DNA from: an uncultured Croceitalea sp.
GTDB lineage: Bacteria > Bacteroidota > Bacteroidia > Flavobacteriales > Flavobacteriaceae
Assembly (NCBI GenBank): GCA_947495075.1
Contig: CANLXH010000002.1
Coordinates: forward strand, 372,001-436,000
Length of the DNA stretch: 64,000 nucleotides
Direction of reading: 5' to 3'
Positions within the stretch are counted from its first letter, which is position 1. Every line of letters begins with the position of its first letter. Below are positions 52,316 through 59,040 of this stretch, piece after piece. Position numbers and translations under genes: made by a program. The notes under the pieces were generated by a model. The model searched no databases and was not told where the DNA came from. It was given only the letters and a program-made list of their open reading frames with translations.

Positions 52316-52486
52316 CTACAAAGCGTCTAAAGGGCTTTGAATATTAGCTAAACTTCTGGGTGTTATCTTGGTATAAATTTGTGTTGTTTTAATAGAATTA
52401 TGCCCCAACAGTTCTTGTATAAGCCGCATATCTGCCTCGGATTCCAACAAATGGGTAGCGTAGCTATGGCGCAAACCGCCGCTACG
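52316..52486 (-). pseudogene. C-terminal remnant of a tyrosine recombinase
   Basis: On the minus strand the frame reads [19 protein letters not shown], then [18 protein letters not shown], and ends [13 protein letters not shown]. It contains the conserved RHSxATHLLE box, the LGH box and the catalytic Tyr (IYT) of tyrosine recombinases. Homology stops at about 52478, exactly where the repeat element starts, so the 5' part of the gene has been replaced by that element. The stop codon touches the stop of the TonB receptor gene. Confidence 0.85.
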
Positions 52487-52695
52487 GCTTAACTACTCGA
52501 CACATCAGGACGCTATATGCAATCTGGTCGACAAATTCTACTCCCAACATACAAAGACCAACACCCGCAAGAGCGGACTGCCTTGAGAACAATATCGTGT
52601 GATTGAACGGAAGCCAGATTCACACGATATTGTTACAGGAATTTTGCTATACTTCCGTAAAATTTGACGGACTCCATATAGCACAGCGTTAGCTG
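52477..52695 (+). repeat. Cassette-border repeat, copy R1
   Basis: First copy of the structured repeat. The outer arms pair (GCTATATG at 52512-52519 with CATATAGC at 52675-52682). The central perfect 15-bp hairpin has arms 52588-52602 and 52620-52634. It ends in an integron-like core GTTAGCTG (52688-52695) just before the ParDE genes. The left 60 nt (from CGCTACGG) match copy R4 closely. Confidence 0.8.
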
Positions 52696-52726
52696 TAATT
52701 TGAAAACAGAGGATAATTTGATTTAT

Positions 52727-52743
52727 TTACCAATTTTTGGTAA
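52727..52743. promoter_or_regulatory. Palindromic operator of the ParDE operon
   Basis: TTACCAA-N3-TTGGTAA, a perfect palindrome 20 nt upstream of the antitoxin ATG. It is a likely autoregulation site for the antitoxin. Confidence 0.5.
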
Positions 52744-52763
52744 TTTTAAGTAAAATTAAAATA

Positions 52764-53012
52764 ATGAAAAATACATCTATATCACTTGGGAGTTATTTTG
52801 ACCAATTTGTAAGTAGTCAAGTTTCAGCTGGACGCTATAAAAACGTTAGTGAAGTTATCAGAGCTGGATTAAGAATGTTGGAAAATGAAGAAAATAAGGT
52901 TATCGCATTGAGAAATGCTATACAAGAAGGATTGAACAGTCCTTTAGTTGAAGATTTTGACTTTGATAAAAACTTGAAAAAACTAAAAGCAGAAAAAAGA
53001 AAGAATGGCTAA
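52764..53012 (+). CDS. parD: ParD-like type II antitoxin
   Basis: 82 aa: ribbon-helix-helix DNA-binding N-terminus (TSISLGSYFDQFVSSQVSAG, NVSEVIRAGLRMLE) and a charged C-terminal toxin-binding tail. It overlaps the toxin gene by 8 nt. ATG 52764 matches the family start; a TTG at 52737 lies inside the operator palindrome. Confidence 0.92.
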   Translation: MKNTSISLGSYFDQFVSSQVSAGRYKNVSEVIRAGLRMLENEENKVIALRNAIQEGLNSPLVEDFDFDKNLKKLKAEKRKNG

Positions 53013-53304
53013 AGTTATACTGAGACAAAAAGCCATTGATGACTTAAATACTATTTGGAATTACACTTTTGAAAAGTGGTCTGAAAAGCAAGCCGATAAA
53101 TATTATGCAACAATTAAAATGGCTTGTAAAGGAATTGAAGAAAATCCTGATATTGGAAAAGAATATGACGGAATAAACAGAAATTTACTCGGACTTAAAT
53201 CTGAAAAGCATATAATATTTTATCAACAGAAATCGAGTGATAGAATTGAATTCATAAGAATTTTGCACGAGCGAATGGATTTGAAAAATAGAATTATCGA
53301 ATAA
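53005..53304 (+). CDS. parE: ParE-like type II toxin
   Basis: 99 aa RelE/ParE fold: VILRQKAIDDLNTIWNYT, then YYATIKMACKGIEENPDIGK and the C-terminal IEFIRILHERMD. ParE toxins poison DNA gyrase; this one pairs with the upstream ParD. Toxin-antitoxin pairs are common stabilising cargo of cassette arrays. Confidence 0.92.
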   Translation: MAKVILRQKAIDDLNTIWNYTFEKWSEKQADKYYATIKMACKGIEENPDIGKEYDGINRNLLGLKSEKHIIFYQQKSSDRIEFIRILHERMDLKNRIIE

Positions 53305-53471
53305 AAAATTACTTCCAATACATGCAAAATCTAGCAAGGGAACGTCCGCTATCGTGGACTCCTTAAAGAACTATTGTGCGAATCTGTACGGATGGCGAAT
53401 ATCCGCACAATAGTTAGAGGGTTTTACTATATTTCCGTAAAAATCGCAGCACTACGTTTAGCGCTGTAGAT
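53305..53471 (+). repeat. Cassette-border repeat, copy R2 (left arm lost)
   Basis: It begins one base after the toxin gene with the element's inner part (ACTTCCAATACATGCAAAAT), so the outer left arm is deleted. It keeps a perfect 12-bp hairpin (53369-53380 with 53404-53415) and the right arm ending CACTACGTTTAGCGCTGTAG. Confidence 0.75.
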
Positions 53472-53484
53472 AAGTTAAATTTAG

Positions 53485-56819: not shown

Positions 56820-56856
56820 AAGTGCAAGTTAAAAGACTATCAAACTTCTATTTTTT

Positions 56857-57540
56857 ATGACAAGGTTTTATAAAGAATTACCATTATTTCATAAGACAAT
56901 AAACAAGAAAGAATTAGAGCTAAAAGAAATTGAGCTTAAAATAAAGGAAAAGGAACTAAACAGCTCAAAATCCAAATGGACGGCTCCACAAATAACCTTA
57001 ATAACTACTATTATAGGATTAATTGTAACGGTTTCATTATCAATATATCAGCAATTCTCTAAATTGGAATTAGAAAAACTGAAATTTGAATCGAATCTTA
57101 TAACCAAAGTAATAACTCCCAACGATATTGAACAAAGCAAAAAGAATTTGAACTTCCTTATAGACCTTGGGTTAGTAATCGAACGAAAAGACAGTTTAAT
57201 AAAAGCACTTAAAGATCCTGATTTCAATATTAGGATTCAAAATGAATTAGATAAGTTCTCAGCATATACTATAGTAATGGATGAGTCTACAAAGGCTCCA
57301 CTGCCTAACATTCTAGTAACATTAGAGATTGACTCACTTAACATTGAAAGGCGTACTAATCGAAATGGCATAGCAAGTTTCACAGGATTACCATCAATAT
57401 TAAGAACCAAGCGAGTTAAATATTCTGTTCGTGAAAGAGGCTATATAAAAACATCCTTTTCAACTTATTTTCTCGATAAACCCCAAAAAATACGATTAAA
57501 AGAACTTAGTCCTGAAATGAAAAAGTATCTAAATGAATAA
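56857..57540 (+). CDS. Hypothetical membrane protein with C-terminal carboxypeptidase-regulatory-like domain
   Basis: 227 aa: a charged coiled-coil-like start (KKELELKEIELKIKEKEL), one membrane helix (about residues 47-63), a helical segment, then a beta-sandwich module (VMDESTKAPLPNILVTLEI, TNRNGIASFTGLPS) of the peptidase-regulatory type. The function is unknown. The gene is bracketed by GTTGGCAGT before and ACTGCCAAC after, the arrangement of a mobile cassette. Confidence 0.7.
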   Translation: MTRFYKELPLFHKTINKKELELKEIELKIKEKELNSSKSKWTAPQITLITTIIGLIVTVSLSIYQQFSKLELEKLKFESNLITKVITPNDIEQSKKNLNFLIDLGLVIERKDSLIKALKDPDFNIRIQNELDKFSAYTIVMDESTKAPLPNILVTLEIDSLNIERRTNRNGIASFTGLPSILRTKRVKYSVRERGYIKTSFSTYFLDKPQKIRLKELSPEMKKYLNE

Positions 57541-57548
57541 AAACACCA

Positions 57549-57740
57549 ACTGCCAACAACGCGTATAGCACATGCCGCAGGCAAACATAAACTCTTGAGC
57601 AGCACGAGTCATACACAGAACGATGGTGTCGAATACGCCTGCAGCGCACTTTTGTTGCGCTGCTACCGCAGCCATCACACCAAAAGCAAGTCGACACCAT
57701 CGTCGCACTCTGTCAGATTGCAAAATCCGTAAGATAAGGG
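57549..57740 (+). repeat. Left half of a long attC-like site with nested palindromes
   Basis: It begins ACTGCCAAC (57549-57557), complementary to the core at 56811-56819. It then holds a perfect 13-bp inverted repeat ACGATGGTGTCGA (57620-57632 with 57691-57703), inside which is GCAGCGCA / TGCGCTGC (57641-57648 with 57656-57663). No gene is present. Confidence 0.65.
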
Positions 57741-57950
57741 ACCGGTTTGCCATCCCGATAGCTATCAGGGCAGGTCGGCAAATTTTATTCACAATACTCC
57801 AAAATCCAACAAAGAAACGTCCGCTGTCGCGGACTCCTAAACGAACAATGATATGTGAAAAAACGGATGTCTATTTCACATATCATTGTTAATAGTATTT
57901 TGTTATATTTCTGTAAAATTCGACGGACTGCACGTAGCGAAGTGCTAGAC
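57741..57950 (+). repeat. Cassette-border repeat, copy R5
   Basis: Conserved inner segments (GCAAATTTTATT, GTCCGCTGTCGCGGAC) surround a perfect 17-bp hairpin (57844-57860 with 57874-57890) whose 13-nt loop reads AAACGGATGTCTA. The right arm GACTGCACGTAGCG leads to a core-like GCTAGAC at 57944-57950, 5 nt before the next ATG. Confidence 0.85.
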
Positions 57951-57955
57951 ACAAC

Positions 57956-58720
57956 ATGAAAATGACCGATAAAACAAGTAACATTCTATATTACAGTGGA
58001 CTGATTTTACTCACAATCGGAGTATTTGGATTGACTTTCGCTGCATTCTTTGCAATAATCGGACTACCAGTTTTTATAATTGGAGTTATTTTGGTTTTGG
58101 TCTCTTTAAAAAAGACTTGGAAACAAAGACTAATTCCAATTGGAATTTTTCTTGTTGGTATAATTGCCTTTTGGCCAATATGGATAGGAATAAATACTAT
58201 TGGGTCTGAAGCATTCTTAATCTCAAATAATTACCGTGGACGAGTAAATATCATTTATAAAAAAGATTGCGGGATACAACTGGAAAAAACCAAAGAAGGA
58301 TTAATATATAAAATCCCAAATGATGGAATATTAATTCTTGATAAAGAACAAAAATATGGTTTTATCGACCACAAATATTATTTGGTTGACCAAAATGGAA
58401 ACCAAACTGAATTACCAAAAATGGATGTTCGAGATTTTAATGAGGAATGGACTTTAGAGAAAAATCTTAACGAACCACCAAGAGACAAACTTGGAGTTTT
58501 TCATTGGGGAAGAACAGGAAGTATAGGAAAAATGATAGACGAAAATGGAGAGGTTTCTAACAAAGATGACTTTTACACTTTTAGTGAATTTTACGTTTCG
58601 ACCTATAGTGATTTAATAGAAAAATTTGATTTTAAGTATGAGCAAAAATTTGACTCAATAAGAGATAATAAAATTGAAAAATGTAAAATAAATACTGTGC
58701 CCAACAATAGTTATGAGTAA
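57956..58720 (+). CDS. Hypothetical multi-pass membrane protein (DUF6843-like)
   Basis: 254 aa with three hydrophobic segments in the first 80 residues, then a soluble domain with NYRGRVNIIYKKDCG, YKIPNDGILIL and YLVDQNGN. This reminds me of the DUF6843 pattern but I hold that loosely. It ends inside an attC-like left arm (TGTGCCCAACAATAG before the stop). Codon use is AT-rich. Confidence 0.65.
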   Translation: MKMTDKTSNILYYSGLILLTIGVFGLTFAAFFAIIGLPVFIIGVILVLVSLKKTWKQRLIPIGIFLVGIIAFWPIWIGINTIGSEAFLISNNYRGRVNIIYKKDCGIQLEKTKEGLIYKIPNDGILILDKEQKYGFIDHKYYLVDQNGNQTELPKMDVRDFNEEWTLEKNLNEPPRDKLGVFHWGRTGSIGKMIDENGEVSNKDDFYTFSEFYVSTYSDLIEKFDFKYEQKFDSIRDNKIEKCKINTVPNNSYE

Positions 58721-58818
58721 TTGCTTGGCCTTGCTTACTTTAGAAATTCCTGTGGAATTCCCAACTTGGTATATACTTATAAAGTTAAGTGCTAATCTAC
58801 ACAACTTCTCATAGCCGA

Positions 58819-59040
58819 GACCGATAACTATCGGGGTGGGTTCGCAAATTTTATTCCCAATACATGCAAAATCTAGCAAGGGAACATCCACTGTAGCGAA
58901 CTCCTAAACGAACAATGATATGTGAAATAGACATCCGTTTTTTCACATATCATTGTTAATAGTATTTTGCTATATTTCCTTAAAATTAGACAGACTGCAC
59001 ATAGTACGGCGGCGATGATGTAGCATTCGCCTGCGGCGCT
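58819..59040 (+). repeat. Cassette-border repeat, copy R6 (inverted loop)
   Basis: It shares CAAATTTTATTCCCAATACA and the right arm with the other copies. The 17-bp hairpin arms (58911-58927, 58941-58957) are identical to those of R5, but the 13-nt loop TAGACATCCGTTT is the exact reverse complement of R5's loop. The right end carries the 25-nt repeat at 59014-59038 in place of a clear core site. Confidence 0.85.

Follow-up and report, generated by a model that had tools for sequence, protein, structure and literature searches.

What kind of element separates a row of small same-strand genes, each preceded by a long related repeat, in the genome of an uncultured Croceitalea sp. (Flavobacteriaceae; GenBank assembly GCA_947495075.1)? 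The window analyzed here, meaning the whole stretch under study, is 64,000 nt of contig CANLXH010000002.1 (positions 372,001 to 436,000, forward strand), and the gene row lies at 52477-59040 on its plus strand. An initial annotation had described five related plus-strand repeat copies in this row and had read it as an integron-like cassette system. All five copies were found at the positions it gave, and its integron-like reading gained support from an integrase at the locus and from complementarity between cassette starts and ends in related loci. Chromosomal (sedentary) integrons are marked by a divergent integrase, an attI entry site, mostly single-gene cassettes in one orientation, GTTRRRY cores and attC sites that form bottom-strand hairpins. 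We consider it very probable that the window holds the decayed array of such a chromosomal integron, from a family that is widespread in class Bacteroidia and has an IntI-like integrase of a different type.

Integrase, cassettes and sites in related loci

Next to the first repeat, the window keeps the 3' remnant of an integrase gene (a tyrosine recombinase) on the minus strand, comprising the last 54 codons and the stop (ending NIQSPLDAL) and broken off where repeat copy 1 starts. In another uncultured Croceitalea metagenome-assembled genome (G005), an intact homologue was found at the same place, past the same TonB receptor (L072:565-1668, minus strand, 354-367 aa by choice of start codon), and it is divergent from the array. 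The divergent cassette of G005 has an end, ACAGCTAAC, that is complementary to its start, GTTAGCTGT, and on another contig of this genome an array with repeats like the long repeat of the window (R1) has the same DUF6090 gene and lycopene cyclase at its end. An R1-like repeat on the cyclase side is present in G001 too (the stretch examined did not reach the receptor). In G002 and G008 the receptor directly adjoins the cyclase, with no insert; G003, G004, G006 and G007 have a different receptor-like gene and other genes at the locus, and none of them showed a repeat there. We infer that an integron entered at the receptor/cyclase locus and was disabled in the window strain by a deletion that ran from within the integrase gene up to repeat 1. 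An integrase beside the array is thus present as a remnant in the window, and intact in G005 and the related loci.

The family set (type A) consisted of 47 of 50 loci (one genome per species), mostly from Flavobacteriaceae, whose integrases match over most of the protein at 53-100% identity. Cassettes were searched as a 9-mer GTT[AG]NNNNN with its reverse complement 150-4500 nt further along and then a hairpin-arm site closed by GTT. Since this pair test is symmetric under reverse complement, the orientation control was dropped, and comparison of the integrase 5' and 3' sides together with shuffles was used. On the 5' side, 71 start/end pairs were found in 226,064 nt (24 of 47 loci with at least one; 67 distinct sites), whereas the 3' side gave none in 422,935 nt from all 47 loci, with 0.9 in shuffles. 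Two of the 71 pairs, with site lengths of 377 and 447 nt, probably arose by chance. Sites were then sought by arm structure alone, which avoids selecting for the start/end match, and 60 were detected on the 5' side; the 3' side gave 2, and one shuffle gave 0. Among 35 consecutive pairs of these sites, R'' corresponded to the start R' of its own cassette at 6/6 positions in 22, and to its own R', at the cassette's own end, in 2; the start was matched at two positions or fewer in 8. The match in 22 of 35 is the mark of insertion by a cut between G and TT. Boundaries of the form G^TTRRRY, with R'' complementary to the start of its own cassette, were therefore found in the related loci, and in one cassette of the window. 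Most array open reading frames (ORFs) of at least 80 aa point away from the integrase (105 of 114; 9 do not). As separate observations, the integrase relative in Flavobacterium columnare (L128) has an in-frame stop, and an array in G095 (L169) has a 97-nt site ending in GTTGAAGAA with five occurrences, no integrase being found in the stretch examined.

The conserved stretch upstream of the integrase closes with an inverted repeat and GTT, and is attI-like, at ~150-190 nt 5' of the start codon. Using a pattern written post hoc with the sequences known, we recovered this core in 43 of 47 loci. The four misses were L106 and L107, where the core is nearer than the pattern range, L132, with too little sequence, and L101, which differs. 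An entry site is hence found in the related loci, and that part of the locus is gone in the window. At one orthologous locus in six Arenibacter species, ten pairs were testable (L110, with 219 nt upstream, was left out), and in these the sequence 3' of the integrase can be aligned for 2.3-7.7 kb at 79-89% identity. On the array side the main match halts at nt 148-153, at the core or predicted crossover, in all ten pairs, and further stretches of ~35-210 nt align beyond the breakpoint in four of them. The initial annotation had named identical gene order in all relatives as a result that would speak against it; these species differ on the array side where the other flank aligns, showing that arrays turn over between species. 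Array DNA is also common to different genera, for example 1767 nt at 91% between L089 and L098.

Two side observations concern these upstream regions and cores. A palindrome like TGTATATCA..TGATATACA occurs within the first 75 nt 5' of the type A integrase start in 30 of 47 loci (by a loose pattern), and it is possible that it serves as an operator of the integrase gene. A GAT.. core, often GATGATG, replaces GTTRRRY in the window (56510, 58823, 59014), in the attI of L107, L113, L130 and L133 (L113 has GATG where GTT is expected) and in L089, where GATGATGTAC is matched downstream by GTACATCATC; this suggests units inserted with G^ATG.

The attC sites of the related loci have R''/R' and L''/L' arms and a foldable bottom strand. 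In 23 bottom-strand sites less than 80% identical, 21 pairs are common, 12 of them with double changes that compensate each other. G.U is found at one L-arm pair in 22 of the 23 sites and at another in 18, and most of the surrounding pairs change on both sides in some sequences. The usual L arm, in 70 sites, is 6 bp, A.C, 4 bp, A.C, and the arm mismatches of these sites comprise 128 A.C compared with 14 T.G, 8 G.T and 11 C.A, with 35 unpaired nt overall. An A.C on the top strand is a G.T wobble on the bottom strand, and the bottom strand folds more stably in 48 of 54 non-redundant sites. The R''-R' lengths cluster at 124-129 and 189-195 nt (few at 47-55), in steps of ~63 nt, across dissimilar sequences (L088-L134, L138-L155), and this clustering persists in 27 sites less than 65% identical (16 at 124-129, 4 at 189-193). 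Beside canonical IntI, a small sample of nine sites in five genomes was obtained. Eight of these have neither A.C nor G.T, seven of the eight having unpaired arm bases; the ninth (L168) is of the A.C kind, and no sites were found at two further canonical IntI loci.

Array and long repeat in the window

The features of the window, in order, are as follows.

52316-52480, minus strand: integrase remnant described above
52477-52696, plus strand: repeat copy 1, attC-like; possible R'' CGACACATC at 52498 (by eye), arm from 52511, R' GTTAGCTGT at 52688, R''-R' distance 190 nt
52764-53012, plus strand: ParD antitoxin (PF03693, E 1.5e-26)
53005-53304, plus strand: ParE toxin (PF05016, E 4.8e-16); the ParDE cargo spans 52764-53304
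53303-53474, plus strand: repeat copy 2; left end lost, GTT core absent
53485-54840, plus strand: WG-repeat protein (PF14903, E 1.3e-39)
54845-55042, plus strand: possible degenerate site of a different kind; ATAAAATTTGCTA and CGACGGA-like stretches, noted by eye, as in a site next to the integrase of G018 (L075); no match to the site models
55043-56203, plus strand: probable lipoprotein, weak DUF5122 beta-propeller match (PF17164, E 1.4e-5, 25.6 bits, below the cut-off of 27)
56402-56501, plus strand: probable decayed canonical attC (site model R2, 18.3 bits, E 0.09, weak); GATGATG core after it, at ~56510
56591-56819, plus strand: repeat copy 3; possible R'' CGACACATC at 56612 (by eye), R' GTTGGCAGT at 56811, distance 199 nt
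56857-57540, plus strand: ORF with a weak carboxypeptidase-regulatory-like (CarboxypepD_reg) match (PF13620, E 0.0026, under cut-off)
57549-57557, plus strand: R'' ACTGCCAAC, exact complement of the R' GTTGGCAGT that opens the same cassette (56811)
57741-57950, plus strand: repeat copy 4, right part of the site beginning at 57549
57956-58720, plus strand: DUF6843 protein (PF20862, E 8.1e-22)
58697-58831, plus strand: canonical attC of the family, ~127 class (R2, 53.9 bits, E 4.8e-9); GAT core at its end
58819-59040, plus strand: repeat copy 5, terminating in GCGATGATG
59064-59819, plus strand: DUF6090 protein, which also ends the array in G005 (92% identical)

The initial annotation had each repeat sit directly 5' of a gene, and a plus-strand ORF indeed begins 5-69 nt past each of the five sites. 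Its element list left out the integrase remnant and a further site type, the canonical ~127-nt attC at 58697-58831. A GTTRG-like core had been reported at all copies; GTTRGC terminates copies 1 and 3 only, and the repeat ends of the others are GTAGATAAG (copy 2), GTGCTAGAC (copy 4) and GGCGGCGATGATG (copy 5). As for the long imperfect palindrome, the named arms do pair in copy 3, CGCTATATGCAATC with GACTGCACGTAGCG, but copy 3 folded alone as DNA is no more stable than shuffles (z -0.30). Single-copy folding covered copies 1, 3 and 5, and copies 1 and 5 were more stable than shuffles (z -5.18 and -3.74), mainly through the inner stem. Because the folding of copy 3 was weak, the palindrome was judged by covariation instead, and 9 of 24 predicted pairs keep pairing despite two-sided changes in an alignment of 17 repeat copies from the same genome.

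The best attC arms among the five copies are those of copy 3, cgcta(T.G)(A.C)tgca(A.C)tc. Across the window, arm quality is good in copy 3 and in the site at 58697-58831, partial in copy 1 and poor in the rest. The long site class (~190 nt) is approached by copy 1 (190 nt) and by copy 3 (199 nt, with both A.C positions). The reading of the repeats as integron sites thus held in that they are attC-like, but the window copy is decayed, the long repeat is nearly limited to the genus and the attC of the family is in general ~127 or ~190 nt long.

With the R1 model, 23 matches were obtained in the genome of the window: 20 full copies and one partial copy of a ~195-nt element, and two weak matches (39.9 and 30.1 bits). 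They form clusters at C2:284-293k, C2:424-431k (the window), C1:1361-1377k and C3:82-87k, plus singles. Beyond this genome, R1 was found in 4 of 58 relatives, of which 3 belong to the same genus. In six places a canonical attC precedes R1 by 154-159 nt, and a same-strand ORF follows within 163 nt in 19 of 21 copies. In the C2:290k cluster a canonical attC closes with GTTAGAGCAC, and 68 nt on, GTGCTCTAAC opens a 283-nt site that ends with the repeat and leaves no gene-sized space. G031 has the same core and a 283-nt site as well, separated by 3.3 kb. The unit ends fit GTT/AAC cores, and R1 seems to be, at least partly, the site of a unit that lacks an ORF and stands ahead of cassette genes. A promoter role of R1 is a guess, and it is compatible with a cassette identity. 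Another repeated stretch was noticed by eye before an R1 site, at window 57506-57700 and L009:10650-10850, with related minus-strand open frames (MVSTCFWC...).

Integrase proteins, distribution and a second layout

The type A integrase matched the Phage_integrase and SAM-like domain models, and the XerC/D/A and integron models matched it as well, the latter models under their cut-offs. With TIGR02249, the model of canonical IntI, the four long integrases tested scored 172-202 bits against a cut-off of 265. The alignment with IntI4 (2a3v) consisted of two blocks with a break between them, and the IntI-specific insertion (~40 residues) was present in 0 of 38 type A and type B proteins compared with 12 of 12 canonical IntI of the same phylum. 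An extra N-terminal beta-beta-alpha-beta-beta domain was predicted by AlphaFold2 (mean pLDDT 82.4, pTM 0.53) and is common to type A and most type B proteins; Pfam gave only a weak DUF5710 match for it, in 6 of 19 members (best E 0.005). For the same domain, a HARP identity was given up, as the best hit in a PDB profile search had E 0.15. In the tree, type A forms one group (95/77), with only 2 canonical IntI rows included and long branches meeting. By the sequence marks tested the family would count as an integron, although it failed the canonical IntI test.

Of 247 Bacteroidia genomes, 125 had a match to site model R2 (E 1e-5), 116 to the type A integrase profile (E 1e-70) and 79 to both (odds ratio 3.9, p 2.8e-7, uncorrected for kinship). 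Thirteen profile-positive genomes are in the type A range (437-521 bits); the best matches of the others reach at most 341 bits, and these would be type B or other relatives. Canonical IntI exceeded its cut-off in 84 of 296 genomes of the phylum, where G094 is the sole positive row of the window's class and none is of its family.

Loci of other integrase subfamilies were meant as a negative control. As cassette arrays turned up there too (63 pairs in 372,496 nt, with at least one in 12 of 22 loci), they were treated as a second layout, type B. Ten of them were laid out, nine with pairs 3' of the integrase (L138, L140-L142, L146, L148, L150, L151 and L153) and one (L143) with pairs 5' of it. 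In the 3'-side arrays the ORFs are mostly on the integrase strand, except in L153, where 5 of 9 are not. It was also observed that several of the nine have an inverted repeat and GTT soon after the integrase stop. In Treponema-type integrons the integrase reads toward the cassettes; type B is similar in having the array 3' of the integrase and cassettes mostly on the integrase strand, and differs in that its integrases are without the IntI insertion. The genome of the window has an intact type B integrase (C2:1184889-1185728, minus strand; L013/L031) with a cassette start 77 nt past its stop and a 3'-side site of 189 nt, and an R1 copy (L013:7868-8061) lies further along the same strand. The enzyme might still act on the orphan arrays.

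Comparison with known systems and alternative explanations

Like chromosomal integrons with IntI (TIGR02249), the family has a divergent integrase, an attI, mostly single-gene cassettes in the same orientation, R''/R' with GTTRRRY, bottom-strand attC and an R'' that corresponds to the R' opening its own cassette. It differs in an integrase without the IntI-specific insertion and with the extra N-terminal domain, and in attC arms that have A.C/G.T positions, not extrahelical bases, at lengths of ~127 and ~190 nt. In the parts consulted, one study of an integron-like tyrosine recombinase subgroup calls the insertion essential for integron function and does not tie the insertion-less members to arrays (PMC8138268). 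Bacteroidota are listed among the phyla with integrons in two reviews (PMC8618304, PMC9668308), and in the parts consulted the IntegronFinder 2.0 report names only one complete integron in Bacteroidetes, in Salinibacter (PMC9024848). No account of such integrons was found in the literature searched, which excluded most subscription papers and all preprints and so is no proof of novelty.

Several findings weigh against assigning the window to such a family. Only one window cassette, 56811-57557, keeps the start/end match, the GTT core is missing in three of the five copies, and the integrase of the window is broken. No pair was found in 23 of the 47 related loci, many but not all of which have little 5'-side sequence. 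R2 was absent from 37 of the 116 integrase-positive genomes, and 46 of the 125 R2-positive genomes had no integrase match. The 12 canonical IntI used for comparison had been taken as the best matches to a model in which the insertion is included. In addition, R2 matched 15 of 42 phylum genomes picked for canonical IntI, and in G063 three sites lie 4-7 kb from one. Either the link between site type and enzyme type is not strict, or both systems are present in these genomes.

This last result would also be expected if the array were a cluster of attC sites lacking integron-integrases (CALIN, a term of IntegronFinder) derived from ordinary IntI integrons, with no distinct family behind it. The window resembles a CALIN in having no working integrase, but it keeps a remnant from a family that the standard IntI model rejects. 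Given further that the linked integrases have no IntI insertion, with the TIGR02249 scores reported above, that a single positive row for canonical IntI is of the class, and that the eight sites without A.C come from four genomes with canonical IntI beside them, we regard this origin as highly improbable. A MITE (miniature inverted-repeat transposable element) or REP-like (repetitive extragenic palindromic) element moved by a transposase, its position before genes being coincidental, is suggested by the near genus limitation of R1, its ~20 copies, some of them alone (C1:808k, C3:219k), and its variable internal hairpin sequence. The recurrent spacing of canonical attC before R1 and of ORFs after it, and one L014 unit bounded by GTTAGAGCAC and GTGCTCTAAC, which fit cassette cores, make this quite improbable.

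The long repeats may instead be promoters or leader RNAs of a regulon with no role in recombination, as their distance from start codons and a conserved TATATTTC near the 3' end of the repeat could indicate. The cargo is unrelated, there is no Rfam match in window 50000-62000, and arms, core and ~190-nt length are common to attC and copies 1 and 3; we consider this explanation improbable. A different objection concerns the enzyme, since an insertion-less integrase could use double-stranded sites as XerC/D or phage integrases do, the hairpin being only inverted binding sites. Sequence and profile place the integrase next to XerC/D/A, and single-strand recombination is held to have come with the I2 helix, whose deletion inactivates IntI1 (PMC7790495). 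The L arm, however, forms 16 bp, with compensatory changes among them, and most sites fold better as the bottom strand; we think double-strand use unlikely.

Returning to the integron reading, intact members have an IntI-like tyrosine recombinase of ~355 aa, transcribed away from the array, which would integrate cassettes at attI as single-gene circles, with the cut placed behind the G of G^TTRRRY. Each cassette would thereby open with the retained TTRRRY and close with the complementary R''. The attC bottom strand is predicted to fold into a hairpin with an R arm, an unpaired spacer, an L arm and a long tip, and its orientation is probably read from the two conserved L-arm G.T wobbles, not from extrahelical bases, which would fit an enzyme without the IntI-specific insertion. 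In the genome of the window, the integrase appears to have been lost by a deletion ending at repeat 1, leaving the cassettes as an orphan array. The long repeats would be sites of the same kind, at least partly belonging to short ORF-less units ahead of genes and perhaps giving expression signals. More broadly, we tentatively propose, at somewhat less than even chances, that Bacteroidia have integrons of their own, with two layouts and with integrases from which the insertion was lost or always missing; that the folded bottom-strand attC is read by the two G.T wobbles; that the N-terminal (weakly DUF5710-like) domain replaces the insertion; and that site length is stepped by ~63 nt, three helical turns of the hairpin.

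We conclude that the locus most likely belongs to a widespread integron family that differs in integrase and site code, and that this member has decayed. Searches based on the IntI-specific domain should miss the enzymes of this family. Integrons that are widespread and do without I2 make the view that I2 brought single-strand recombination directly testable, and they give access to a large reservoir of mobile genes from marine and other environmental bacteria. The intact relatives could show gene capture from folded DNA by another route, with an enzyme that does without a part deemed essential in known integron enzymes.

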